From positions 1,561,246 through 1,625,245 of the forward strand of contig CATQHT010000003.1 of NCBI GenBank assembly GCA_958296045.1: a stretch of 64,000 nt of DNA. Direction: 5' to 3'. The stretch is from Rhodothermales bacterium. GTDB lineage: Bacteria; Bacteroidota; Rhodothermia; Rhodothermales; Bin80. The translations under genes and the position numbers were made by a program. The number at the start of each line of letters is the position of its first letter. The stretch's first letter is position 1. Of the stretch, positions 7,330-56,347 are shown piece after piece. The notes below the pieces were generated by a model that saw nothing but the letters and a program-made list of their open reading frames with translations, did no database searches and was not told the origin of the DNA.

Positions 7330-8088
7330 ATGAGGCGGGTAGGCTACTCTGGCCTAGATGCCCATGTCCACGACAGCGTTCTGGCGGAGGTGGGGATGGA
7401 TGGCAAGTTGGTCAATAGCGATCGGTTCAGAACATGCAAGCCGTCAATAGTGGGTCGCATTGTCGCTGTAGCTGCGAAGAAGAAGCTCTGGGCTCTGGAG
7501 GAGTCAACATTGGCTGCGTGGCCAGCAGGCATGCGGCGTGGCTACGTGAATAAGGTGGTTGTCTGTGATCCACGCCACAGTGCGCTGATTGGCAGGAGCG
7601 CGAACAAGGACGACTTTGAGGATGCGTTCCGCTTGGCCCGTCTGTTGCGGATGGGTGAACTGCGGTCGATTACTCGGATCATTACCGCCGCGGCACCTTC
7701 AACGCTATCGCGCAGCCATTTATCAAGCTGCGCGATAGCCAACGCAACCTGAAGACTGCCATAAAGATGAAGTATCCAAAAGCAGGTATCTTGCGCGTGG
7801 ACAGGACAACCGTGTTCAGCGCGGCACACCGCAAGCGTTACTTGGAGCAGCTGCCGAACGCTCCCTCTCGTAAGATGGTATCGGATAGTTGTGGGTTGCC
7901 GGATTCAATGATCGCGGCGCGGCAAAAGGCACGAGACCAGATGATCCGACTGGGCAGATGGTATCTGGAGGTTCAGCAGTTCATGCAGATGTCCGATGTG
8001 GGACCAATCAGTGCTCGTATCTTCAATGTGTTCATCTAGATGCCCCACCGTTTTGCAACTAAGGGCTGGCGAAAATTTAACCTATCTG
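7330..8088 (+). pseudogene. IS110-family transposase remnant
   Basis: The N-terminal half (from MRRVGYSGLDAHVHD) shows the DEDD RuvC-like residues: D in GLDAH, E in WALEES, D in VVCDPR and the NKDDFEDA stretch. Near 7670-7690 the frame shifts; the next frame continues with YRRGTFNAIAQPFIKLRD and later the C-terminal GPISA-type element (MSDVGPISARIF). An in-frame TAG at 8037 then interrupts the region that should read IGDPHRFATK (here I-stop-MPHRFATK). Homology ends near 8090, where the tnpB unit begins, so the tnpB unit may have inserted into or deleted the 3' end. Inactive. Confidence 0.85.
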
Positions 8089-9369
8089 CCTAGTTGGCCG
8101 GTGGTCAATTTCGCCTGCACTCGTGGGTGCGCAACACCCCTGCGGATGCAGCTCACGAGCACGATGCTGTACACTCCCCAGACCCGCCACAGCATCCAAC
8201 AGCGGATGCCGCTCAGCGTCCGGGTGAGCAGACATGTGTTGCGCGTACGATAGGCTCGCCGCCCATCCATCAGGGCAAAGGCCCCGATACCACACGTTCA
8301 ACGCCGCGTTAACGTCGCGGCACTGGGTCTTTCCGCACGTGGCACAACGATGCTTCCTGTCAGCTAGGCGTAGCCTTTCCTCTGGCTTGTGATGGTAAGC
8401 GCTGCATCTCTGCGTTGTGTCGTTCGGCGGAACCAGCTCCACCTTGCCGCCAAGGAAAGTGGATTTGTACTTCAACAGCTGCACCAATTCGTACAGCCCT
8501 TGCGCGCGCATCGATCGGTTCAGCCCCGTCTTGCGGCTGCCACCGGCGCGTGTCATGCGTTCTACTTTCAGGTCTTCCAGAAACAGATTCGCGGATCGCT
8601 TAACGACGTCGGCAGCCACCTCGTGGCGGTACCCGAGGTTGCGTCTTACTACGCGCTCGGCCTCCTTGCGCCAAGCACCGAACCGCTTTCGGCGCAGACG
8701 TGTGTCTTTCTTCGTCTTAGCAGCCCGACGCCGCAAAGCGTCCCTGCGGGGCTCACTCTTTTTGATGGGCGCGTAGCTCTTTCCATCCGCCAGCGTCGCG
8801 ATGGCCTTGCAGCCAAGGTCCACGGCCATCGGTGTGTCTGCGCAGCTGTTCTCTGGCGCCTCGGGGCGCTCGTACACGACTTGTATCGTGTATTCGGTAC
8901 CCAGCGACGACCGCACGATGCGCACGAACTTGCAGCCGTGGCGCTTGATCAACCCGCGCCGATCGGTGAAACGGACGTACCCGACGCCCTTGATGCAAAC
9001 GCGATAGTCTTGGCGCCTGACGCGTTCGGGCTTCCGTAGCAGCCTGAAGCTCTTCACCAAGTCGCCTCTGAAACGCGGCGGGCGCGCATTATGCTTATCG
9101 AAAAAGCGCTTGTAACCCTCCGTCACGCCCCTGATCACAGGACGCTGCTCAGCCACGCCGAACTCGAGATTGCGCTCATCGGCTCTGCGGGCGGCCGTCC
9201 AGAGCTTCGTCAACGTGAAATAGCTCGGATGCTTCTCTGCTACCTTGTGTGCGTTGCGGCATTGTTCGACCGCCCAGTTGCAGACCCACTTAGCGTTAAC
9301 GAACATCCGCCGCAGGCGGGCATAGCCCGCCTTCTTTGTATAGCAGCGGTATGTCTGGCTCAGTAGCAA
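8077..9369 (-). CDS. tnpB: TnpB (IS605 OrfB-type RNA-guided nuclease), full-length copy
   Basis: A 430-residue protein. The RuvC triad is present: D184 (AVDLGCK), E265 (LEDLKV) and D352 (CRDVNAAL). The C-terminal zinc finger is altered: the first pair reads RCSAYHH, so the second Cys (position 325) has become Tyr by TGC-to-TAC, while the second pair CATC is kept. The sister copy at 1-1208 still encodes that Cys but is frameshifted. The tail after NVWYRG is about 70 residues longer than usual and reads into the presumed right-end/reRNA region. No tnpA is present. Whether the protein is active with three zinc ligands is uncertain. Confidence 0.85.
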   Translation of the reverse strand: MLLSQTYRCYTKKAGYARLRRMFVNAKWVCNWAVEQCRNAHKVAEKHPSYFTLTKLWTAARRADERNLEFGVAEQRPVIRGVTEGYKRFFDKHNARPPRFRGDLVKSFRLLRKPERVRRQDYRVCIKGVGYVRFTDRRGLIKRHGCKFVRIVRSSLGTEYTIQVVYERPEAPENSCADTPMAVDLGCKAIATLADGKSYAPIKKSEPRRDALRRRAAKTKKDTRLRRKRFGAWRKEAERVVRRNLGYRHEVAADVVKRSANLFLEDLKVERMTRAGGSRKTGLNRSMRAQGLYELVQLLKYKSTFLGGKVELVPPNDTTQRCSAYHHKPEERLRLADRKHRCATCGKTQCRDVNAALNVWYRGLCPDGWAASLSYAQHMSAHPDAERHPLLDAVAGLGSVQHRARELHPQGCCAPTSAGEIDHRPTRQIG

Positions 9370-15492: not shown

Positions 15493-15939
15493 ATGGCAAG
15501 CCCCCCGATGCCTTCTGCTGGACTCTGGCGTGGTTTGGCTGTTCTTGCACTCGCGCTGTTCTTGACCGGCTGCACCGAGTCTGCAATCGACGCCACATGC
15601 CAGGACGGACTTAGTGGACAGTTTTTCATTCCAGCCTTGTTGCTGGCCGCTTTGTTGACCACGGCCCTTTGGATGCTGGGCTATTTTGCCTTCGCCCGAC
15701 GCAGGATGGCGAATTGGAACCTAGCCGGAAAGGAAAATAGAGCACCGCGTTCATGGGCGTTTGTCGTACTTGGAAGGGTGGTCCCAATCCTGACGATGCT
15801 TGGTTACGTCATCGTGTTCTTATTGGCGGATTGCCCAGCCTCCAACAAGATTTGGTTAGCGGCTGGACTCACGCTAGGATACGCGGTGGGGTTGGTTGCG
15901 TGTATGGTGATAGTCCGGCTTACCAAGCGCGGTTCGTAA
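15493..15939 (+). CDS. membrane lipoprotein-like protein with four hydrophobic segments
   Basis: A 148-residue protein. An N-terminal signal with lipobox-like LALFLTGC (about residues 20-27) is followed by three further hydrophobic segments (about 45-67, 89-112 and 118-141) separated by a basic loop (FARRRMANWNLAGKENRAPR). No family recognised. It ends only 20 bp before the 1660-residue tubulin/actin-like gene and on the same strand, so it is probably the first gene of that operon and would supply a membrane anchor. The start could also be 15 bp downstream (second Met). Confidence 0.6.
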   Translation: MASPPMPSAGLWRGLAVLALALFLTGCTESAIDATCQDGLSGQFFIPALLLAALLTTALWMLGYFAFARRRMANWNLAGKENRAPRSWAFVVLGRVVPILTMLGYVIVFLLADCPASNKIWLAAGLTLGYAVGLVACMVIVRLTKRGS

Positions 15940-15959: not shown

Positions 15960-18900
15960 ATGACCAGACTGGTTGCATGCGGTGGAACGGGCGCTCACGT
16001 TGCGCTGGCGTTGGTACGCCTGCACATTCTTGGGGACGCCCTTGGCTTCTTTGACCGCAAGAAGCACAAGTTTCGTTTCCCAGACCTGTACCTGGTAGAT
16101 CAGGACAGCGGCGACGGTTCGGAGGGCAAGCGGACGGCATGGCAAGAGGTGCGTCAGCTCATGGACCAGCATCCAGGCCGAGTAGATTGGGAACAGGGCG
16201 GTCGCCACGGTGGGATGCCTACCATCACGACGATTAGCCCACTGCCAGTCGGCAAGAATAAGCGCTGGTTTGATAAGCCCAACAGCTCCCTCAAGGTCCG
16301 TTTTGGCGATTCTCCTCTTCTTAACTTGCTTGCGTCTCGATCGCAGCAGGAGATTGATTTCTCACTAGGCATGATGGGCTCCCCTGCCGTGGGGTCACTC
16401 TTGTTCAAACTCAAGGAATTTGACCAAGCTGGCGACGGCACGAACCATGACGAGGAGTACGAGAAGGCCATTCACGAATGCAGCTCCGACAGGGTAGTGG
16501 TCGTGGGATCGGCTGTAGGTGGAACCGGCGCATCGGTTGCTCCCACGCTGGCCGAACTCTGTGCAAGAGGGGTGCGCGATAGTGTCGACGAAGCGGACGG
16601 TGCAGCTGTGATGGCAGTTATGGTGCACAAGTGGTTCACTTTTCATCGGCGAGACCAGGATGGCAAATATCAGGCCAGTGCACGGGACCGCAATGCCCGC
16701 ATGAAAGAGAATGCCGCCAGTGGCTTGGCGTGCTACGGACAAGCCTTGGTACAGAAGGCGGCCACTGTGCTGGTTGGCGTACCGAAGAAGGGCTTGGTAA
16801 GGCGAGTCTATACCTCCGATAATCAGCAGCCCATCCAAGACTCCTACGCCCATGTAGTGGGCGCCCTCGCCGCCACTCTTCATCTTCTGAAGAAAGAGCC
16901 ATTTTCTCCAGGTTTATACGGCGTATCGGCGTCGGATCCCACTAGGTTGACGGGAGACCTATCGGTAGGGGTTGAAGAAGGTACCATGCAGGATTTGGTA
17001 GATAAGGCAACCGTCCTGCTCCACATCCTGCGAGTATTTATCCGCGATCTTACCCGGACCAATTCGTCGTCTTTGAAGAATTCGTCGTCTTTGAAGAACT
17101 GGTTTTTCTATGCTGGCCGCGACGCTCCTACGTCGAGCCTCTTTCGTAGCGTGTCGGACACAACAGGTGGCAATCAGGCTCAGGTTGCTCGGATACTCCA
17201 AAAAGTCGTTAACGACTACAGCTCCTGCCTAGCATGGCTTCAGAATGCTGACTGGGGGGTCAAGGCCAGTGTGGTCGACAAGCGTGGTGTAGAAAAAGAG
17301 TTTACAACTCAGTCAAAGTTGGCCGCGCGTATCAAGAAAGTCAAATGGACTGAAAGTAGCGGCAATAATGAACCCGAAGAGGCAGCTCTGGCACTCTATG
17401 GCTGGACTGCGCGTTGGGTCGCTGACGTATGGAAAGAACGGAAAGAACGATTGGTTAAGCCGCAAGTACAGACCGGGCACGCTGAAGGTCACCCCGGCGG
17501 CTACTGGCCATCGCAGGGGAAGACAGGTCTAGCGCCGAGTTGGAAAAAGCCAGGTATGATGACTGCGGTCGCGGAAGAGAAACAGAAGGGTACGCTGGCG
17601 ACATTCTACGAGGCGAAAGATATATCGCAGAATGGCTGGCCTGATCCTGTAGCGACCGCAGAACACTTCAATTACTGCATTGAGCATAAGAGTGACATTC
17701 CTTACGCTTCTCGGCAGCTTAATATCCTCCTGATCGGTTTGGTAAACGGAGCATTATCCATCGAACGCATGGCACGCTCCGGCTCGCCGCCCAGCGTCTC
17801 ACTGGAAGGACTGATACATGATCTTAAAATCCCCTACCCCGATCTTGCATCTCATCGCATCGTGTATCGTCCACGGAAGAAACCGCCGCGTAGTATTGGA
17901 TTCACTTCACCCAAGACGTTGGTCTGCCCTTCCCCGACGGTGAGTGATGATGATTGGCAAGAACTGTGGGAGGACCTAAATGACATCCCACCCAAGCCTC
18001 CGTCTAGCTGGAAAGATCCCTGGAATGATCCAAACGACCTATCCAGCCTTGTTAGGGACGCCACAGAAGTAATTATGGGTTGGATCGTTAGGCTGAAGAA
18101 AGACAGGCCTCGAGCGGTACCCGATTGGACGTCAGCACTTGCAGGTAAGAATGAAGATGCAGGGCCGTTTCGTGCATCTATTCAAACATACAGTGTGCTA
18201 TGGGGTGAAGACACAGCGCGCATTACATTGCCTATTAATGCTAACAGCCCTCGATTGATACCCAAGACAAGCGAAGAGGCCCTTGGAGAGCATAAAGCCC
18301 GGGAGGTGGAGTGTGCGACATTCTTGGAGGATAACAAGCATTGGTCGCCTCTTGATGGATTCACAGTTATTGAAGACTACTACTTACCAAGCAAGAAAGA
18401 CACTGTAAATCTGATATGGAGAAACCACCTTGAGGCCCTCCAGAAGGCAAGTAAGCTGTTTTCATGGACGCCAGAGTGCGTGGATGGTCAGGACAACCTC
18501 TTGATCCAGCTGGACGGGAAAAGCTCGGTGTTGGTGTTGGTTAAGAATCTTCGGGTGATTGATGAGGAGGTTTTATGCATACGTGAGTGCTATCCTTTGC
18601 ATCAGCGTCCAATCTCCAGATCACGACGAAAAGCAGGTGAATGGGTGTTTCCTGACCTCCCGATTCTTCCCGATTATCTGGGACTTATCCGCACCCGAGA
18701 CGGCGACAGCCTACTAGAGCTCCTGCTGGATGGGGTAACCGATACGAATGTACTAGACATTAACCACGGACCAGAACACAATCGCAAAGGGCGAAGGGTT
18801 TCATGGTCGGTAAGGTTTAAAGGATGCGAAAAGCCAATCCAAGTCCCCGTGGGGATTCGCAAACTAGAGGCAGATCCCGTTCGTGCCCATTGGATGGTCT

Positions 18901-20942
18901 GGCCGAACTTCCGTGTAGCGGGTAACCAAGACCCGTGGCGTGCCTATTACCTATATGGCCGCACGAGCCATGAGCCGATAGAACTCCGTCCAATGATTGT
19001 CGATGGACCTGGAAACCGCGTATCGGAACCAAGACCGGGTGTGTCTATGGCGTGCAGGATGAGGGCCATTGCACACGACAATGGTAGCCATGTTGGGGGT
19101 CCGCCCGTTGCTGTTTGTGCCTACGATACTGCACTAAAAGAGTATGTCGGTGTGTATCTGGTGCGTCTGAAGGCATATGACCGGGCTAAGGCTAACACGT
19201 GGAAGGTGGCCGTAGACTTTGGTACTTCGCATACCGTGGCCGCCATGAAGGTGGGCGAGGAAGACGTCGAGCATGCAGAGCTGGCCGCAGAATTGGCAAC
19301 TCCTACTGGCGGGCAATGGAACGGGATGAGTGTTCACATAAGCGAAGACTGGCAAGAGGGGAATCCGGCAGGGCAAGATGCAGGATACGAGCTATGGCGT
19401 CCAAACTATGTAGCTAAATACAGCAAGGGCTCCAAATCGTTGCTGCCATCTGAACTGTGGTCGGTCAGGCCGCTAGATAAGGTTGCTCCAACAGATATCG
19501 ACAACTGGGAACCTACGACACATTATGCCATTCCTGTCATGGATCTTCGACGCTCAGACGTTGCACAGCATATTTTGTCTGGGCTGAAGTGGGGTGCGAT
19601 TCAGCAGATGAAATTCCGGGACAAGGCGAGTGTCCTTCGCGGCAAATACTTGAATGCTGCTCTGGAGTTGTTCATAGCAGATCTGGTTTGCAAGCGGAGT
19701 TTGCTGCCCGAAAAACTCCTGATGACCTTTACTTATCCACTTCGGGCCATCGATGTAGGAGAATATAAACGCTTTGAAGAAACCATTAGTAAGGTCCTCC
19801 GCATTAGCAGAGGGGACCTGGGATGTCATTTCGAGCTCGCCGAAAACGTAGGCCTGTTTAGCGAGTCGCATGCTGCTAAGGGTGGTAGCGGGAGAAACCT
19901 GGAAGTCGTCATCGTTGGCGACCTCGGCGGCGGGACGTTTGACATGTTGATCTCAACGTCAGAAGTACCCTCTTTTGAGAGCCCCCGATTTCGTGAAGTA
20001 GCAGACAGCGCAAAGTTAGGTGGCAACCTGCTTCTGGACATCCTCGCGAAGAATCCCAGCCGATACCTTCCCAAAGATAGTAAGGGCTGGAGCGATGATC
20101 CAGAAAAATGCGCAACTCAGCTCCGCACTTGGATGCGTACCATTGGTGCCAACTCTCTTTTCGATCCCAATTCACTCAACGTGGAGGAAGAGGGGCTAAG
20201 ATTGAGTGGATTTGGCAAAAAGGATGCGGGGAATCTGGCGAGGCTGCAGATTGAGCGATATTTCCGCATGATCACCGACTATATGGCGAAGAGCTTGGTG
20301 GCTTACGTGGGTAAGGAGGTATGGCCGAAGCTAAGCGAAAGGGAGCGCAGCAAAGTCCGAATCCTGGTGCAGCTGCGCGGCAACGGATGGCGCCTTTGGT
20401 ACCAGACTACAGATTACGCCTCAATTCAGGCCACAATGCGTGGCTGGATAAAGGAGCGCGCCGAAGAGCTTTGGAGCCAAGTCGGGATGAAGGGCTCAGT
20501 CAAATCCATGTGGAAGTCGCCAACGCCGCCGAAATCCAGGCCAAAGCTGGATGCGATCTGCGAAGCCGTAGGTAAGAGCTACGGAAAGGATAAGGCTACG
20601 AAGCACAGCTACAAATTCCCGCTTTCCAACTTGGAGCTCATCCCAAGCGGTGATCGCAACGTGACTGTCAAGTGGTACGATAGCCTGCCCTATAAGCCTC
20701 CAGAAGACGTAGAGAATGCTGTTTTTCAGTTCGGACTCGTAGACCCGAAGATTGCACTTGGACAGCCTGGTACGAAAAGCCCAACGGTAAGTGAGTTGGA
20801 TGAGGCGTCCATGCGCAAAGTCAATGAGGGCATCCAAAGCGTCGTCCGAGAGGGTGGCACCATATCAGCTCCGGTGGCAGCGCTGATTTGGGAGAATGTT
20901 TTTGAGTCCGAGACTTTTAGGGATTTCAAGGATGTATCTTAA
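15960..20942 (+). CDS. giant two-NTPase protein: tubulin/FtsZ-like N-terminus, actin/Hsp70-like C-terminus
   Basis: 1660 residues. It begins TRLVACGGTGAHVALALVRL, a Rossmann GGTG loop as in tubulin-like proteins, and at about 179-201 has VVVVGSAVGGTGASVAPTLA, matching the GGGTGSG signature position of tubulin/FtsZ. Residues about 210-960 show no domain I recognise; they include a 6-residue duplication (NSSSLK twice). At 970-1000 there is a Trp-rich WPNFRVAG segment. From about 1081 it has an actin/Hsp70 ATPase core: phosphate-1 VAVDFGTSHTVAA, phosphate-2 VIVGDLGGGTFDMLI (about 1316-1330), connect-2-like DSAKLGGNLLLDIL, and ILVQLRGNGWRL in the adenosine position. Likely a cytoplasmic NTP-driven sensor or scaffold. 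The actin-like part is clear; the tubulin-like part is inferred from two motifs. GC content is visibly lower than in flanking genes, which suggests transfer. Confidence 0.75.
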   Translation: MTRLVACGGTGAHVALALVRLHILGDALGFFDRKKHKFRFPDLYLVDQDSGDGSEGKRTAWQEVRQLMDQHPGRVDWEQGGRHGGMPTITTISPLPVGKNKRWFDKPNSSLKVRFGDSPLLNLLASRSQQEIDFSLGMMGSPAVGSLLFKLKEFDQAGDGTNHDEEYEKAIHECSSDRVVVVGSAVGGTGASVAPTLAELCARGVRDSVDEADGAAVMAVMVHKWFTFHRRDQDGKYQASARDRNARMKENAASGLACYGQALVQKAATVLVGVPKKGLVRRVYTSDNQQPIQDSYAHVVGALAATLHLLKKEPFSPGLYGVSASDPTRLTGDLSVGVEEGTMQDLVDKATVLLHILRVFIRDLTRTNSSSLKNSSSLKNWFFYAGRDAPTSSLFRSVSDTTGGNQAQVARILQKVVNDYSSCLAWLQNADWGVKASVVDKRGVEKEFTTQSKLAARIKKVKWTESSGNNEPEEAALALYGWTARWVADVWKERKERLVKPQVQTGHAEGHPGGYWPSQGKTGLAPSWKKPGMMTAVAEEKQKGTLATFYEAKDISQNGWPDPVATAEHFNYCIEHKSDIPYASRQLNILLIGLVNGALSIERMARSGSPPSVSLEGLIHDLKIPYPDLASHRIVYRPRKKPPRSIGFTSPKTLVCPSPTVSDDDWQELWEDLNDIPPKPPSSWKDPWNDPNDLSSLVRDATEVIMGWIVRLKKDRPRAVPDWTSALAGKNEDAGPFRASIQTYSVLWGEDTARITLPINANSPRLIPKTSEEALGEHKAREVECATFLEDNKHWSPLDGFTVIEDYYLPSKKDTVNLIWRNHLEALQKASKLFSWTPECVDGQDNLLIQLDGKSSVLVLVKNLRVIDEEVLCIRECYPLHQRPISRSRRKAGEWVFPDLPILPDYLGLIRTRDGDSLLELLLDGVTDTNVLDINHGPEHNRKGRRVSWSVRFKGCEKPIQVPVGIRKLEADPVRAHWMVWPNFRVAGNQDPWRAYYLYGRTSHEPIELRPMIVDGPGNRVSEPRPGVSMACRMRAIAHDNGSHVGGPPVAVCAYDTALKEYVGVYLVRLKAYDRAKANTWKVAVDFGTSHTVAAMKVGEEDVEHAELAAELATPTGGQWNGMSVHISEDWQEGNPAGQDAGYELWRPNYVAKYSKGSKSLLPSELWSVRPLDKVAPTDIDNWEPTTHYAIPVMDLRRSDVAQHILSGLKWGAIQQMKFRDKASVLRGKYLNAALELFIADLVCKRSLLPEKLLMTFTYPLRAIDVGEYKRFEETISKVLRISRGDLGCHFELAENVGLFSESHAAKGGSGRNLEVVIVGDLGGGTFDMLISTSEVPSFESPRFREVADSAKLGGNLLLDILAKNPSRYLPKDSKGWSDDPEKCATQLRTWMRTIGANSLFDPNSLNVEEEGLRLSGFGKKDAGNLARLQIERYFRMITDYMAKSLVAYVGKEVWPKLSERERSKVRILVQLRGNGWRLWYQTTDYASIQATMRGWIKERAEELWSQVGMKGSVKSMWKSPTPPKSRPKLDAICEAVGKSYGKDKATKHSYKFPLSNLELIPSGDRNVTVKWYDSLPYKPPEDVENAVFQFGLVDPKIALGQPGTKSPTVSELDEASMRKVNEGIQSVVREGGTISAPVAALIWENVFESETFRDFKDVS
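17061..17096 (+). repeat. 18-bp perfect tandem duplication inside the giant gene
   Basis: AATTCGTCGTCTTTGAAG occurs twice back to back, giving NSSSLK twice in the protein. It keeps the frame and looks like a recent slippage event in a linker. Confidence 0.85.
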
Positions 20943-21028
20943 CGAGACCCTGTTCACAGCTGCTGGTGTCATGCCCACGCAAAGCCGCTTACGATCGTAG
21001 CCCCTGCCCTATTTGGTATATGGTACGC

Positions 21029-21352
21029 ATGAACATACCCGGAACTATGGATAGCTCACTGAGGCCTGGTCGCGCCCAGCGGCATGACCAGGCTGACCAC
21101 AAAGGTGGCAACGCAATGACTGTTGCGTTGCGCTGGCTTATTGGGCACACCCTCTCGGTTGCGCGATGGGCAGTAAGGCGTCTGGAGGTCGCTGAAGGTA
21201 GGCTGCGTGGCCGACCTCACAAATTGGCACCGCTTCTCCTCCATGATGCACTGGAGCTTGCCAAGGCCCTACCACGATTGACGTGGCCACCATCACCTTC
21301 ACTGCCCCGTGATCCGCTCCAGAACGGAGACTATGGAGATACCGAAACGTGA
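21029..21352 (+). CDS. small basic helical protein in the accessory operon, unknown
   Basis: 107 residues from ATG 21029 (MNIPGTMDSSLRPGR); an in-frame GTG at 20966 is a longer option. It has a mildly hydrophobic amphipathic stretch (MTVALRWLIGHTLSVARWAV) followed by basic helices, and a disordered Pro-rich tail. It fills the only gap between the giant gene and the vWA lipoprotein on the same strand. No family recognised; it may be a real small component or a chance frame. Confidence 0.4.
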   Translation: MNIPGTMDSSLRPGRAQRHDQADHKGGNAMTVALRWLIGHTLSVARWAVRRLEVAEGRLRGRPHKLAPLLLHDALELAKALPRLTWPPSPSLPRDPLQNGDYGDTET

Positions 21353-21389: not shown

Positions 21390-22766
21390 ATGAAAAAGAC
21401 ACTCTTCATTATTCTCATTGCCCTTGTCGTAGGTGTGGGCTTGCCTGTCGCCTGTACGAGTGACCGCAGTGAGAACGATCTCGGATCGGCCGGTGGTCCC
21501 ATTGGTCAGCAGGGGCTGCGCCAGGACGTAGATGTTACGCCGGTCTGGGACGATGCCGCAGCCGATGTAGTCCAGATAGCCGATTCGCTGCCTAGGGTAT
21601 TCAGGCTGCTGTGGGATCGCTCCATCCCGATGGGCGGATACATAGATCCTCACCCAGACAGCATTTCCCTACCTCATAACATTCAGGAGTTCCTCAAGAG
21701 TGTGCGCTTGGCCTCCGACTTTGGCCACGCTGATATTTCCTTAGAATGCAGCGGGATCTCTGACCAGATCGTGGCCTACGATTGTGCCACCAAGTTTGGG
21801 CGCGAGTTTTTTGACGGAGGAAACTCCCGTATGGACTTGGCCATCAGCCAGGTCACATCGGACATTTTGGACGGCACCGTTGTGGGAGCGGCACTCATCA
21901 CGGACCTCATGGCTACCACGGAGTTTGCCGTGGGAGCCACATCCCTCTTGCCTTACTTACGAGACGCAAGCCTTCGGGCCCATTTCAATAACGGTAGTAT
22001 TCACGTGGCACTGGTGGGCATCAAAGCAGCTTATTGGGGCATACGCGGCACAGGTTGTCGAACGGAGCCTCCAGGATCTCCAGGGTGCTGGTTCAATGAG
22101 GGTACCGAGAGTTACCAGCCACTCGATAGTTTGATTCAGAGGCCGCTGTACGTACTCTTAGTAGGCCGAAGCATTAAGGCTCCAGATCGGAGAGTAAATC
22201 CTGTCGTGAAGATGGCGCAAGCGCTTCAGGAGGCGATTGCGAAAATAGATCTGCATGCGGAGACGTTGTTGGATCTTTTCACGCATGGGACAATTGCGTC
22301 AACTGATAGGTTTTTCTGGTTACCGATGAAGCAAGAAGGATTTCAGCCTGTCGATCTCTTAGGGAATGGCTACGACTGCAAGCAGGATGGCACGTTTGAT
22401 TTATCCGGTACCTTTGCGGACTCAAGCATAGTTGTTATGGACACCAGGGTAGATTCAAGAGATAGCTTGTATGCGGGCGCAAGTGAGGTCAGGTCAGTGG
22501 CTAGAGACAGTGTAAAGTTCTCGCTCTACTGCGAGCATGTTCGCAGCAATGAGGACAAAATCTGCTCCAAGGCTGACGATGGCCGCGCCACTAATGTAAC
22601 CGTTCGGCTCCGCCATCAAGCTGCCGATCAGAGCCGCCTCGATTCATGGTCTTCTGTGGAGCATGATCCAGCGTCTACTTTGTATTTGGACGATTTCCTT
22701 GACGGCTTAAGACCCAGCTATTACGAGGCGGCCATCACGCCTTTTCCGCCTATTGCTTGCCGTTAG
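21390..22766 (+). CDS. vWA-domain lipoprotein
   Basis: 458 residues. A lipoprotein signal (MKKTLFIILIALVVGVGLPVAC) predicts export and membrane anchoring. The first half reads as a von Willebrand A domain: FRLLWDRSIPMGGYI gives a MIDAS-like D76-x-S78-x-P-M81 (canonical DxSxS, with Pro for the last Ser), GGNSRMDLAI supplies the second metal ligand (S146), and VGAALITDLMATTE the third (T171-D172). Then come strands HVALVGIKAAYWG and RPLYVLLVG. The second half has several Cys residues and no known domain. Such proteins bind partners through a metal-dependent face. It follows the giant gene on the same strand; an IS3 element begins 18 bp after its stop. Confidence 0.72.
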   Translation: MKKTLFIILIALVVGVGLPVACTSDRSENDLGSAGGPIGQQGLRQDVDVTPVWDDAAADVVQIADSLPRVFRLLWDRSIPMGGYIDPHPDSISLPHNIQEFLKSVRLASDFGHADISLECSGISDQIVAYDCATKFGREFFDGGNSRMDLAISQVTSDILDGTVVGAALITDLMATTEFAVGATSLLPYLRDASLRAHFNNGSIHVALVGIKAAYWGIRGTGCRTEPPGSPGCWFNEGTESYQPLDSLIQRPLYVLLVGRSIKAPDRRVNPVVKMAQALQEAIAKIDLHAETLLDLFTHGTIASTDRFFWLPMKQEGFQPVDLLGNGYDCKQDGTFDLSGTFADSSIVVMDTRVDSRDSLYAGASEVRSVARDSVKFSLYCEHVRSNEDKICSKADDGRATNVTVRLRHQAADQSRLDSWSSVEHDPASTLYLDDFLDGLRPSYYEAAITPFPPIACR

Positions 22767-22783
22767 ATAGATCCAAGTCGCTC

Positions 22784-23795
22784 CCCCTAAAACTGGACAG
22801 TACCCTAAGATGAAGTTGGGCTGGCTGAAAACAACGGTGACGTTGCCCATAATAGAGAAGCGCTCCATGGTGGGTCATGCTGAGGGGAGCATCCAACGCC
22901 AGTGTCAGCTGCTTAGAATTCCGCGATCCACCTGGTACTACAGGCCTACAGGGGAGTCGGATTATGAGCAGCAGTTGATGCGCGTCATGGACGAGGCGTA
23001 CACAAACAATCCTGCTTGCGGTGTTCGCCGGATAACGCAAGGCCTGCGGCGCCGTGTGTACGTGATGAATCCGAAACGTGTTCATCGGCTGATGCGTCTG
23101 ATGGGATTGCAAACCAGCCACCCCAAGCGCGGATATCGGCCAGATTCGGGGCATTATCGGCGTCCGAACCTGATAAAGCGGCTGCCCATCGTGCAGGCGG
23201 ACCAGGCTTGGTGCGTTGATACCACGCACATTCGGATGGATCGTGACTGCGGATTTCTGGTGACCGCGATGGGTTGCTTTAGCCAATACGTACTTTCATG
23301 GACGCTATCCAATACGCAAAAAGCTGCGAAGTCTGCTCCGGTTTGCGAGGACGCGTTGGCCATTAGGCAGCCGGAGATCTTTCACTCGGATCACAGGGCG
23401 CAGTACAGCAGCGATGCGATGATAGCTTTGTCCATGGACGCGGGCGTACGGATTTCCATGTGCGGGCACGGCCGTTGCTACGACGACATTCTAAACGAGC
23501 GCCTGTGGCGCAGCGTGAAGGATGAGGAGGTGTATCTGAATGAGTACGGCTCGCTGCACGACGCTGGGCAGCGGCTGCACGCGTGCTTCGCGCGCTACCA
23601 CCACTGCCGTCCGCGCCATACATTGCAATACCGAACACCTGCAGAGGCCTACTTCAGCTCCGATGAGGTCAATGAACCGGTCACCGAAGCCGGCCCGATG
23701 ACTGAATCCCCAGGAGGACCTTCTCCCCCACATAGCCCTAGACAAGTGGCCATGCACCATCTTAACTACGTGGTGACACTGTCCAATGAATGGGG
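22784..23795 (+). mobile_element. decayed IS3-family element between two island genes
   Basis: Ends are imperfect inverted repeats: left CCCCTAAAACTGGACAGTA and, read on the other strand at 23795, CCCCATTCATTGGACAGTG. It is only about 1.0 kb: orfA is missing and orfB begins 25 bp from the left end, so an internal deletion has removed the first ORF. No clear target duplication. It lies wholly between the vWA and ZorA-like genes. Confidence 0.75.
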
Positions 23796-23817
23796 TACAC
23801 CTTACTCAATGGGCTGA
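22810..23817 (+). pseudogene. IS3-family OrfB transposase, orfA deleted
   Basis: 335 residues with the rve-type DDE core: D in WCVDTTHIRM, D in IFHSDHRAQYSS (usual HSDQGSQY, so altered) and E in LNERLWRSVKDEEVY. An HTH_21-like part (CQLLRIPRSTWYY) lies near the N-terminus. It begins with sequence normally at the end of OrfA (KLGWLK), so the programmed OrfAB fusion cannot be made. Its frame reads through the right inverted repeat and stops 3 bp before the next gene. Probably inactive. Confidence 0.85.
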
Positions 23818-23819
23818 TT

Positions 23820-26195
23820 ATGGAGACCGTATTGAGCGCGTTGACGTACGTTATTCTTGGCGCTGGTTTTCTGACTATATTATATTTTCAGCGCCGATAC
23901 TGGCGCCAAGCGAAAGAGGCTGGGCGAAGCCTTGAGAGTGAGGGCTTTGAGGAAGGTGAGATCGCACGTGTGCTGGACAGCGTTCGCACGTTGGCTAGGA
24001 ATAGGCAGCCTTTTGACTGGGCCGCGACATTCGATAGGTTCGATCGGATAACGGAACATCCGCTCGATGAAATCAGACGCAGCGCTAATGCCGCCTTGGT
24101 CACTGGCGTAGGTGGAACGATGGGATTGTTCATCATTGACCTTTTCTTTCATTTTGTCTTCTTCCCCAGTGGCGAGAAACTGCTTGTCGATGATGAACTA
24201 CGACCAAGTGTGTTAATAGGAGCACTCTTGGCGCTGCTGTCGAGTCTGATCGGCGTACTCTTCCACCTTAACATAGTTTTACGTTGGTTGAGTCGGGCAC
24301 AGACAAGTGCCGCCAACAAGGTTAAGGAGTTGATAGCCAGGGCGCACCAGCTGATTCTAACGACTGCAGAAGAGCTGGCCGCTGAGGAGGAGCAGCCGCC
24401 TATCGATCTTGATGGCACTTTTGCCGAATCAATTGCGCGGTATCCAGAGTTGCTGCAGCGTGCAGACGCAAGCATTCAGTCTTTGAGAAAGGAGGTAGCT
24501 CGGCAGGTAGATCTTCTTGGAGCTGCCTCAGGTGTAGTGGCGCAAGAACTGAAGGGTATCGCAGGCGTGACAAAAGAACTCGCTGCGCAAAAGGCCTCCT
24601 TGCAGAAGGCGCTGGAGACGCAGCAGGAACAACAGGAAGCGCTTGGTACGCGCTACGACAGCCTAATTGACCTTGTATCTTCTGCGCTGATTACCCACCA
24701 GCAGACTGCTACTGCAGCCCAAGAGGTTGTAAACGTCGTGGCGGTCCTTAAGGCTCTTCCCGAGCGCTTGGCCGATACCATCAATGCGGCTACGACCGCC
24801 TGGGAGGACCAGCAGAAGCGTGGCCACGACGTGTTTGCGAACGCGGTCGGGGGTTACCTCGACGACCACAGGGCGATCCTTGCGGGAATCAAAGCCCAAT
24901 TTGAAGAAGAGCAAGAACGGGGAGAAAGGGTTCAGCAAGCCCAGGCCAAGGTCCAGCAGGAAATCGTGGACAAGTACGAGAGGCTCACCGTTCTGGTAGA
25001 ATCGTTCCCGAAGGCCTTGCGCGTTTCATTAGAGCAGATGTCAGATATCTTCGGCCAAGAAGCACGTAACCACGTTAAAGATCTGGAGCGAGCGCTCAAC
25101 GATGGTCTCGGCAACTTGGACGAATCCTTCAAAGCGAACCTTCAAAGGTTGAGCCAAGACATTGGAGCAGGGGCTGCCAGCATTATTGAGCAGACTTTGG
25201 GCAAACTTTCCCAGGAGATCCAGCAGGGCGTGCTGACGCCTCTGGAAAAGACGGGGCGCCATCTTGACGACTTGGTAGCCTCTGCGCTCAGTACCTACCA
25301 GCAGACAGTTGATTCGGCGCAAAACGTAGCGAACGCGACAGCGGTCCTTCAGACGCTGCCCGAGCGCCTGACCGATACCATCAATGTGGCCACCACTACT
25401 TGGGAGAACCAGCAGAAGCGCGGCCACGACGTTTTTGCGAATGCGGTCGGGGGCTACCTTGACGAACATAGGACGATCCTGGAGGGAATCAAAGCCCAAG
25501 TTGAAAAAGAGCTAGAACGGGGAGCAACGGCTCAGCAATCACAGGCCAATGTTCAGCAGGAAATCATGGACAAGTACGAGAGGCTTACCTTGCTGGTGGA
25601 GTCCCTTCCGAAGACCTTGCGCGAGTCATTAGATCAGATGTCACACATCTTTGGCCGAGAAGGACGCAACTACGTAGCAAAGCTGGAACAAGCGCTCAAT
25701 GATGGTCTCAGCAACTTGGACGATACCTTCAGCACGAACCTGAGGACATTGAGCCTGAACATTGGAGAAGAGGCTGTTCGCGTCATCGAGCAGACTCTGG
25801 GTAAACTTACCGAGGAAATGAAGCAAGGCGTGCTGATTCCACTAGAAGAGATGGGACGCCACTTAGATGCGGCCACCGAGGCCATGCCTGCTGGTGCAGA
25901 GAGGTTCGGGCAGGCGATGCTGGCATCCGTTACTGTATTGGAAGAGCTGCCCAAGGCACTGGCTGACGCGTCCAAACGGGTCAACAGTGTAGCTAAGGAC
26001 GTCACTGGAATAGCTGAGGACCTAAATGTCAGTATCGAGGGGGCTATTAAAGACGCGTGGGAGCCGGTCACCGGCAAGATGCTGGAATTTGCTGAGCAGG
26101 CAAAGGATACTCATAAGGAACTGGAGGAATTAATAGACGGCCTTGTTAAATTCATCCAAGAACTCGTGGACAGAATAGGGAGTCACGTAAAATGA
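23820..26195 (+). CDS. MotA/ZorA-like membrane protein with long coiled-coil tail
   Basis: 791 residues from ATG 23820 (METVLSALTYVILGAG). An earlier ATG at 23790 lies in the IS3 end and is not native. Three hydrophobic segments (about 5-22, 98-122, 138-162), including ANAALVTGVGGTMGLFIIDLFF and LIGALLALLSSLIGVLFHLN, match the paired pore helices of MotA/TolQ/ExbB-type proton channels. Residues 180-790 are almost entirely helical and charged, as in the long cytoplasmic tail of ZorA. The tail contains an exact 200-residue internal duplication. The stop overlaps the start of the next gene by 4 bp (ATGA), typical of coupled MotAB/ZorAB pairs. The channel assignment is inferred from topology, motifs and partner gene. 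Confidence 0.65.
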   Translation: METVLSALTYVILGAGFLTILYFQRRYWRQAKEAGRSLESEGFEEGEIARVLDSVRTLARNRQPFDWAATFDRFDRITEHPLDEIRRSANAALVTGVGGTMGLFIIDLFFHFVFFPSGEKLLVDDELRPSVLIGALLALLSSLIGVLFHLNIVLRWLSRAQTSAANKVKELIARAHQLILTTAEELAAEEEQPPIDLDGTFAESIARYPELLQRADASIQSLRKEVARQVDLLGAASGVVAQELKGIAGVTKELAAQKASLQKALETQQEQQEALGTRYDSLIDLVSSALITHQQTATAAQEVVNVVAVLKALPERLADTINAATTAWEDQQKRGHDVFANAVGGYLDDHRAILAGIKAQFEEEQERGERVQQAQAKVQQEIVDKYERLTVLVESFPKALRVSLEQMSDIFGQEARNHVKDLERALNDGLGNLDESFKANLQRLSQDIGAGAASIIEQTLGKLSQEIQQGVLTPLEKTGRHLDDLVASALSTYQQTVDSAQNVANATAVLQTLPERLTDTINVATTTWENQQKRGHDVFANAVGGYLDEHRTILEGIKAQVEKELERGATAQQSQANVQQEIMDKYERLTLLVESLPKTLRESLDQMSHIFGREGRNYVAKLEQALNDGLSNLDDTFSTNLRTLSLNIGEEAVRVIEQTLGKLTEEMKQGVLIPLEEMGRHLDAATEAMPAGAERFGQAMLASVTVLEELPKALADASKRVNSVAKDVTGIAEDLNVSIEGAIKDAWEPVTGKMLEFAEQAKDTHKELEELIDGLVKFIQELVDRIGSHVK
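24661..25860 (+). repeat. 600-bp tandem duplication encoding the coiled-coil tail
   Basis: 24661-25260 and 25261-25860 align without gaps at a fixed 600-bp offset, with roughly 80 percent base identity by eye. Identical blocks include KRGHDVFANAVGGYLD, KYERLT, LERALNDGL/LEQALNDGL and IIEQTLGKL/VIEQTLGKL. Divergence shows that the duplication is not recent, yet the frame and heptad phase are preserved, so the tail has been lengthened by exactly 200 residues. Confidence 0.92.
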
Positions 26196-26869
26196 GGCGA
26201 CACCGAACTCAGGTCACCGTATGGCCCGCGGTAGCAGACCTGATGACCGTCATTGCTGTGGTAAGCGTCATCGCAGGGCTGGCCTTTTGCTCTCCTAAAT
26301 CGGCATCAGACTCGCTGCAGGAGAAGAGAGACTCACTGCAGGAGGAAAGAGACTCACTGCAGGAGGAGAAAGACTCGCTGCAGGCAGAAAACGAGTCCCT
26401 GGCTGCTAGGCTAGGCTCGCTAAGGGTAGAAGTGGATTCACTATCCCGCGACGGAGAGGGTATACCTGCATGCCTTGGCAGGGACTCAAGGGATGACCTC
26501 ATTCCGCTGGTTTCTATCACGGTACGCAATGATGATACCTACCTTGTACAGCGCACGTGGTGCCCTACCCGTAATAACATGTTCGCAGCACTCAACGCGG
26601 AAATCAACGAGATTGATGGTGAGGTATTGAACCGTAACCAATTGCGCCGGTTTGCCGAGAAGGCTAGCAATACCGCCGCCGCTCAGTCTTCTAATTGTGG
26701 CTTCTGGGCACATCTGCGAAACGGTGGCGTTAGCATCAGCGAATTGCGCAACAGGTACCACGACGACTTCGCAAGATTCTTCAGCGGCCTAGTCAATCCG
26801 AGCGTGCTATATGCCAACCGTACTACTTCCCCTAGTCCACAACTATGTGGGGCACGGTCTGGTAATTGA
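26192..26869 (+). CDS. MotB/ZorB-like single-span protein, no OmpA signature
   Basis: 225 residues, starting inside the stop of the previous gene (ATGA overlap). After a short basic cytoplasmic end comes one helix, VWPAVADLMTVIAVVSVIAGLAF, in the MotB/ZorB style, with an Asp at the helix start (ADLMT) where MotB has its proton-carrying residue. A heptad linker (DSLQEKR, DSLQEER, DSLQEEK, DSLQAEN) follows, then a 140-residue periplasmic domain with three Cys (ACLG, TWCP, NCGF) that lacks the OmpA peptidoglycan-binding motif. It probably forms the stator/plug partner of the ZorA-like protein and senses something in the periplasm; that role is inference. Confidence 0.62.
   Translation: MRRHRTQVTVWPAVADLMTVIAVVSVIAGLAFCSPKSASDSLQEKRDSLQEERDSLQEEKDSLQAENESLAARLGSLRVEVDSLSRDGEGIPACLGRDSRDDLIPLVSITVRNDDTYLVQRTWCPTRNNMFAALNAEINEIDGEVLNRNQLRRFAEKASNTAAAQSSNCGFWAHLRNGGVSISELRNRYHDDFARFFSGLVNPSVLYANRTTSPSPQLCGARSGN
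26309..26392 (+). repeat. four 21-bp tandem repeats (heptad repeats)
   Basis: Units of 21 bp, each encoding D-S-L-Q-x-x-x, run from 26309 to 26392 inside the ZorB-like gene, with only a few differences between units. Copy number changes would alter the coiled-coil linker by whole heptads without losing frame. Confidence 0.9.
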
Positions 26870-55645: not shown

Positions 55646-56347
55646 CTACGCTGGAGGCTCGAGTCCTCCGGCCATCTCCAGCAGCTTATCGCGTAGTTCA
55701 ATCGCGAATACTCGGTGAATCTGTTCGATAGGCAGTCCGTGATCGTAGGCGCTTTGACGAATGGTTCTGAGTTCATCGTCTGTATACGTGAAGTGCTCAG
55801 CAAATTCGAAACAATGCTCTTGGATCTGATAGGCATCTTTGCCCTTGAGCCAACTTGCTAGGGTGGGGGCGACGCGGCTTGCCCACTTAGCTCCCTGGAT
55901 TTCCTGAGTGATAGCCCGGCCAAGATCATTAAGCGCGAGCGGGCTTTGGGAAGATACAGGACCCTTTCCAAAGATCGCATAGAAGGCCTTGATCAGCCGA
56001 TCCTCGACCCTCGTAAAACGGTCACTGACACGATTCTCCACTCGTTCTATTCGCTCACTCAAAGCCGTTTCCGTCTTACTAATAGCCATTTCCGTCTTGC
56101 TAATAGCCATTTCCGTCTTGCTAATAGCCATTTCCGTCTTGCTAATAGCCGTTTCCGTCTTGCTAATAGCCGTTTCCGTCTTCGTTATCCCTGCCTTGAA
56201 TTCCTTACCAAGATCGTCGGTGCGCTTTCCTAGGTTCCGCCAGATAGCGAACAGTCCTCCCGCTAGGACCAGGAATGCCACCACACCTCCCCAAGTTGTT
56301 ACCAAGTCGATACTGTTGCTGGGCGGTACAGTTTGGAATAGAAACAT
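55646..56347 (-). CDS. membrane-anchored heptad-repeat protein, unknown
   Basis: 233 residues. One N-terminal helix (about 18-38, VTTWGGVVAFLVLAGGLFAIW), then a coiled coil built from six heptads of the form ISKTE[T/M]A, then SERIERVENRVSDRFTRVEDRL. The C-terminal domain of 100 residues begins SPLALNDLGRAITQEIQG and includes DAYQIQEHCFEFAEHF and a final AIELRDKLLEM; I do not recognise it. The last residues (GGLEPPA) run up to the IS1595 relic, so the natural C-terminus may have been altered by that insertion. Confidence 0.65.
   Translation of the reverse strand: MFLFQTVPPSNSIDLVTTWGGVVAFLVLAGGLFAIWRNLGKRTDDLGKEFKAGITKTETAISKTETAISKTEMAISKTEMAISKTEMAISKTETALSERIERVENRVSDRFTRVEDRLIKAFYAIFGKGPVSSQSPLALNDLGRAITQEIQGAKWASRVAPTLASWLKGKDAYQIQEHCFEFAEHFTYTDDELRTIRQSAYDHGLPIEQIHRVFAIELRDKLLEMAGGLEPPA
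56064..56189 (-). repeat. six 21-bp tandem repeats encoding heptads
   Basis: On the plus strand the unit is GCC(A/G)TTTCCGTCTT(G/A)CTAATA, six times without gaps, giving ISKTE[T/M]A heptads in the minus-strand protein. Units are nearly identical, so copy number is probably unstable. Confidence 0.92.

Follow-up and report, generated by a model that had tools for sequence, protein, structure and literature searches.

The window analysed in this work, a stretch of 64,000 nucleotides from a Rhodothermales bacterium, carries on its forward strand a conserved operon made of a small membrane protein, a very large protein (gene 2), a small protein, a lipoprotein and a pair of membrane proteins referred to below as the A and B subunits. 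Its features, with the basis on which each was placed, are:

15493-15939, +: gene 1, small membrane protein with a lipobox-like start, 148 aa (open reading frame)
15960-20942, +: gene 2, 1660 aa (profile matches of both ends)
15960-16994, +: FtsZ/tubulin-like N-terminus of gene 2 (PDB profile search; PF00091)
19182-20519, +: Hsp70-like C-terminus of gene 2 (PDB profile search)
20966-21352, +: candidate for gene 3, small, 128 aa (placed by position; similarity weak)
21390-22766, +: gene 4, lipoprotein, 458 aa (open reading frame; homologues in the same position in relatives)
22810-23817, +: remnant of an IS3-family transposase between genes 4 and 5 (NF033516, E 2.2e-51)
23820-26195, +: gene 5, A subunit (stator/ZorA-like), 791 aa (fold match; start and tail limits by alignment)
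23820-24305, +: core of gene 5 (limits by alignment)
24306-26192, +: tail of gene 5 (limits by alignment)
24669-25268, +: first copy of the tail repeat (match to the second extends to 25261)
24996-25118, +: LP-FG module copy 1, residues 393-433 (module HMM built without the window, i-E 1.6e-11)
25269-25868, +: second copy of the tail repeat (match to the first extends to 25861)
25596-25718, +: LP-FG module copy 2, residues 593-633 (same HMM, i-E 6.5e-13)
26192-26869, +: gene 6, B subunit, 225 aa (transmembrane helix with Asp16; periplasmic domain of predicted TolR/ExbD-like fold)

Alignment to relatives places the likely start of the A subunit at the ATG at 23820, and the first ten codons of the longer reading frame (23790-26195) overlap the end of the transposase gene. 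The latter is a single reading frame, present in one copy in the genome, and the IS3 element (region 22767-23819) interrupts the operon between the lipoprotein and the A subunit, a place from which it is absent in relatives, where the two genes adjoin or overlap. Homologues of the lipoprotein, the start of which we take to be lipobox-like, hold the same position throughout the window's family and in five loci beyond it (L041, L047, L048, L049 and L050), and a small frame resembling gene 1 precedes gene 2 in L029, L030, L031, L032, L034, L035 and L037. Between about 15000 and 27000 the GC content drops from about 0.60 to 0.51-0.57 across the operon, as expected of acquired DNA.

The operon is rare and patchily distributed. 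The A subunit and gene 2 occur in the same 8 of the 16 genomes of the window's family, and at the level of the order gene 2 is found in 8 of 114 genomes, all from this family. A scan of species genomes with the gene 2 alignment gave 14 loci, seven of them known family members and seven new, which brings gene 2 to 15 genomes in total, the window's own included. The new loci come from metagenome-assembled genomes labelled Vicinamibacteria, Thermoanaerobaculia, Holophagales, two further Acidobacteria, Gemmatimonadota and Gammaproteobacteria, the last on a 4.1-kb contig, and five of the seven have an A-subunit homologue; the contigs of the other two (L043 and L051) stop before the A gene. The Gammaproteobacteria-labelled contig (L051, coverage 808) holds the start of gene 2, which shares 59% identity with the query across residues 2-78 and begins as the Rhodothermales copies do; the contig is possibly misbinned. 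Wider genome searches returned 2 of 396 genomes in the phylum of L041 and 1 of 298 in that of L048, all already known, and added none; a contig scan of close relatives with the A subunit alone gave 72 pattern matches, none of them confirmed. The A subunit had no match in the plasmid collection, and the 20 pattern matches of the gene 2 alignment in viral contigs were all unconfirmed, so these collections give no sign of carriage by phage or plasmid. As for the neighbourhood of the operon in relatives, DprA/ShosA-type, methyltransferase-like and MzaE/AbiU-like genes lie near it in G392 and G396, and a type II methyltransferase in G270, which makes a role in defence possible, by association with such genes.

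Gene 2 appears to encode one polypeptide with a tubulin/FtsZ-like and an Hsp70-like end. All 29 PDB matches of its N-terminal profile are FtsZ (E 0.04-1.1), the best 60 of the 66 matches of its C-terminal profile are all Hsp70/DnaK (E 0.16-1), and PF00091 is found in seven of seven members, the best at 4.4e-5, below the cut-off. None of the matches of the two end profiles is significant singly, yet the lists are uniform. The profile of the whole protein matched only one, unrelated, PDB chain (E 0.09). Within gene 2, at 17061-17098, a perfect 18-nt repeat (2.1 copies) adds a few extra residues at a place where relatives vary in length.

The A subunit carries a duplication in its tail. Comparison of the window's DNA with itself gives a gap-free match at a lag of 600 between 24669-25261 and 25269-25861, with 470 of 593 nucleotides identical (79%), and, taken as a unit of 200 codons (24660-25259 and 25260-25859), 137 of 200 residues are identical. 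The self-match scores 347 at this lag; across the remaining lags between 30 and 1499 it never exceeds 13, and shuffling the codons of the tail 200 times gave no score above 18, so that the duplication is far above chance level. The first-pass annotation, which had placed it at 24661-25860 with about 80 percent identity and read it as an in-register lengthening of the tail by one unit, was right within about 10 bases and 1-2 percent, and on the nature of the change as well: the copy is tandem, in frame and 200 residues long. Both copies share the frame of the gene, and their identity at the three codon positions is 0.805, 0.86 and 0.685. The divergence between them (NG86: dS 0.57, dN 0.18) rules out an assembly artefact as well as a very recent origin, and their dN/dS of about 0.32 is evidence of constraint on the sequence of the copies only, and not of selection on length. 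Helical phase was considered as a further line of evidence and rejected: 200 and 160 residues, the latter being the unit of the relative G398 described below, are whole turns at a period of 3.636, but fall 72-90 degrees off at 3.62, the mean windowed period.

A duplication of this kind is an ordinary type of mutation in an unusual location; it is its recurrence that adds interest. Among the 13 A-subunit sequences, the window's included, that were searched for internal repeats (with only six shuffles of each as control), the 200-residue repeat is confined to the window and absent from the 12 others, as a change particular to this lineage should be, and homologues do not all carry two equally diverged copies. 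G398, from another genus of the same family, has a tandem repeat of 160 residues of the homologous segment, with 129 of 160 identical (dS 0.31, dN 0.094, dN/dS 0.30). In G392 and G396 there is an array of 29-residue (87-nt) units, and the first protein is 58 residues, or two such units, longer than the second, the two being otherwise nearly identical. Self-alignment scores of 67-150 in the undoubled tails are weak and were not counted as repeats.

What these repeats add to the tail differs. A module of 41-45 residues (LP...FG.EA..HV...L) occurs once in most tails, and is found doubled in the window (200 residues apart), in G398 (160 apart) and in L048 (80 apart), where one copy is weak (i-E 4e-4 under a model built without L048). 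Reversed sequences scored as well as i-E 0.0078 against the module HMM, for which reason G215 (0.002) and L049 (0.0049) are not counted as having clear copies. Both large duplications, the window's and that of G398, thus doubled a conserved module besides making the tail longer; the 29-residue repeats fall outside the module and supply spacer.

Tails range from 318 to 629 residues, with a coefficient of variation of 21.6% (n = 12; G397, split over two contigs, is excluded), and complete A subunits from 462 to 791, whereas the coefficients for gene 2, the lipoprotein and the B subunit are 1.9, 4.5 and 5.3% (n = 7 each, family genomes; the fused lipoprotein of G270 and the B-subunit fragment of G397 are excluded). 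When one copy is subtracted in the window and in G398, tails still range over 318-436 residues, with a coefficient of 9.6%. These figures are subject to the nature of the material: for L048, L050 and G398 the frames or contigs analysed do not include the N-terminus of the A subunit, reading frames of GC-rich loci were picked by HMM, and alignments of the tails are not reliable column by column. The single-copy tail is presumed to be of ancestral length, and in this rare and uncharacterised system the length of the tail seems open to evolutionary change.

We lean, with some reserve, to the view that this system is an uncharacterised ion-driven stator-type complex, the A-subunit rod of which was lengthened by a 200-residue duplication that doubled a module. 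The first-pass annotation added that tail length here may be under selection; recurrent lengthening while partners keep a constant size fits either selection or the mere tolerance of extra spacer. On the second option, helical tails would tolerate in-frame repeats, and slippage and unequal crossing-over would lengthen and shorten a spacer with no functional effect; such neutral drift is a serious possibility, if one that we hold short of probable. It would account for three different unit lengths (200, 160 and 29 residues) inserted at different sites, and for the spread that persists among tails after subtraction of one copy. On the other hand, the copies of both large duplications are constrained in sequence, and it is the same conserved module that was doubled in two lineages.

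A structure model of the A subunit (AF2, from 12 sequences) is mostly well predicted for residues 1-190, except in a loop near 111-130, and is poor in the tail (pLDDT mostly 31-52), where the prediction of helix is accordingly of low confidence. In a Foldseek search of the PDB, 47 of the best 50 matches of this model are TolQ, ExbB, ZorA or PomA (E 0.017-0.17), and three ZorA entries are among these 50; VIA gives Z of about 10-11 for ExbB, TolQ and ZorA, and designed helical bundles score equally high. At the level of sequence, PF01618 matches one of nine A-subunit N-termini (E 0.017); the PDB search with the N-terminus has unrelated proteins at the top and a single MotA/TolQ/ExbB chain (8vvi, E 9.6); and profile-profile comparison with 20 ExbB/TolQ proteins gives a probability below 2%, which, the reference being narrow (Neff 2.1), is weak counter-evidence. 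The core thus has no significant sequence match to any stator family in Pfam, the PDB or the profile comparison, and its membership of the TolQ/ExbB/ZorA/PomA fold class is moderately supported, by its predicted structure. The best match of the PADLOC ZorA models to the window's A subunit (1.8e-11) is located in the tail and not in the core. The name 'ZorA-like', under which the protein had first been described, is therefore valid for the predicted fold only: that of residues 1-195 does match the class, but sequence searches do not single out ZorA, the B subunit looks like TolR/ExbD, and the models of ZorC, ZorD and ZorE had no match, at E up to 10, in a PADLOC scan of genes 2, 4, 5, 6 and two upstream genes (genes 1 and 3 lay outside it).

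It might be argued that the protein is no stator subunit at all and belongs to some other kind of membrane protein, with three helices and a coiled-coil tail, for which the comparison with ZorA would be misleading. The failure of the sequence searches and the scores of the designed bundles would agree with this, but the near uniformity of the Foldseek matches and the nature of the next gene make it improbable. The B subunit encoded there has a single transmembrane helix that contains D16; this residue and two cysteines, C94 and C169, are invariant in 11 of 11 sequences. The predicted fold of its periplasmic domain matches TolR at Z 6.6 (73 of 74 residues, rmsd 2.5) and 6.4, and ExbD at 4.7-5.0, the top value being below the safe level of the tool; the two are the closest fold matches of the domain. 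An OmpA-like fold is absent from the lists of fold matches of the B subunit, and the OmpA family from its Pfam results, which does not by itself exclude their presence. A 21-nt tandem repeat (3.9 copies, 26308-26389), each unit of which encodes seven residues, or one heptad, lies in the periplasmic helix of this subunit; here too, as in the tail of the A subunit, in-frame repeats have extended a helical part of the operon's products.

The preferred reading, a stator-type complex with a lengthened rod, also includes an independent origin of the window's duplication and that of G398, which the sequences show. In a tree of ten copies of the segment the window's two pair together (93/97), as do those of G398 (88/96). 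That both instead descend from one ancient duplication, with the copies homogenised within each protein by gene conversion, which could mimic such a tree, is very improbable: the duplicated segments are homologous and the within-protein pairs are both below the starred level of the tool, but unit lengths and limits differ (200 against 160 residues), L047, which comes nearest to G398 over this segment (49 and 54% identity), is single-copy, and the AU test rejects trees that join the first copies of the two proteins, or their second copies, to each other (p 4.9e-4 and 5.6e-25). Together with the array in G392 and G396, this makes at least three separate changes of tail length by tandem repeats among 12 tails.

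If the stator interpretation is correct, the A subunit would be the pore-forming part of a complex with a TolQ/ExbB/ZorA-like core, joined by a single-pass B subunit with its membrane Asp, by envelope lipoproteins and by a cytoplasmic tubulin-like/Hsp70-like protein. In Zorya, as described in PMC11890865, the ion-driven complex is built of five ZorA and two ZorB, the tails of the ZorA subunits come together as a pentameric rod in the cytoplasm, and defence needs both the ZorA tail and the ZorB Asp. By analogy, five A subunits should bundle their C-termini into a rod, to which the 200 residues of the duplication, at 0.15 nm each, would add about 30 nm if they are helical throughout. Most likely this rod would relay an ion-driven movement, or a trigger at the envelope, to a cytoplasmic partner, for which the tubulin/Hsp70-like protein of gene 2 is the likely candidate, and the duplication would alter the reach of the rod or the number of its docking modules while leaving the motor untouched. 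Rotation or rearrangement of the ZorA rod is itself put forward only as a hypothesis in that source (PMC11890865).

How far a Zorya-type architecture may be extended to the present A/B pair depends on which features are compared. With the ZorAB of Zorya types I and II, as covered in those parts of PMC11890865, the pair seems to share the fold class of the membrane core, predicted here, a long helical cytoplasmic tail of the A subunit, here predicted helical, and an Asp in the transmembrane helix of the B subunit. It differs in that its core has no secure ZorA sequence match, in the apparent resemblance of its periplasmic domain to TolR/ExbD, and in a tail that varies strongly in length within the family; since the sizes of Zorya components are reported in the same source to be well conserved within each family, such variation is notable. 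With TolQR and ExbBD the likeness is in the predicted A-subunit core and, apparently, in the periplasmic domain predicted for the B subunit, but their A subunits have about 220-250 residues and no long tail, and the present operon has lipoproteins and a tubulin/Hsp70-like protein. The system is classed among the ion-driven stator systems, and not as Zorya. A motor-coupled helical rod of widely variable length between species is also described for TolA domain II, in the part of PMC12204202 used here; unlike the doubled module of the A subunit, that rod is periplasmic and belongs to a separate protein.

The closest described relative of the system, in the literature searched, is the GTPase-tubulin-HSP70 class of conflict systems, which, in the text devoted to it by Kaur et al. 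(2020, PMC7159879), combines tubulin-family and HSP70-family proteins in one cluster. In the present operon the two parts seem to lie in one polypeptide, and a stator pair is added; MotA, TolQ and ExbB are not mentioned in that text. A TRAFAC GTPase had no Pfam match in genes 2, 4, 5, 6 and the transposase (genes 1 and 3 were outside the scan), and the open-licence literature searched yielded no stator system with a tubulin/Hsp70-type protein. The operon may represent an undescribed class of stators. In it a motor of the TolQR/ExbBD type, fitted with a rod like that of ZorA, would signal to a tubulin/FtsZ-Hsp70 protein, linking rotary defence motors to tubulin/HSP70 conflict systems, and tandem duplications would have adjusted rod length and the number of docking modules more than once (by 200 residues in the window, by 160 in G398 and by units of 29 in G392). 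We offer this as a tentative proposal, less probable than not in our own estimate. Even so, the operon appears to unite two predicted kinds of conflict machinery that are described apart in the cited portions of the literature, and its tails bear on the question, raised by the account of the ZorA rod in PMC11890865, of whether such a rod acts as ruler, lever or docking platform. They offer natural experiments for this, namely homologous rods with one or two copies of a module, and a nearly identical pair of proteins that differ mainly by spacer repeats.

Other features of the window and its genome may be listed briefly. A gene for a TnpB-family RNA-guided nuclease lies on the reverse strand at 8077-9369 (NF040570, E 3.8e-45), and a 21-nt tandem array of 5.7 copies, with 96% matches, at 56063-56182. 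Outside the window, the same genome (G000) has PF01618 (MotA_ExbB) matches at C1:235453, C1:844001, C2:33348 and C3:2159548, with identical scores and frame lengths (226 aa), perhaps as parts of a repeated element.
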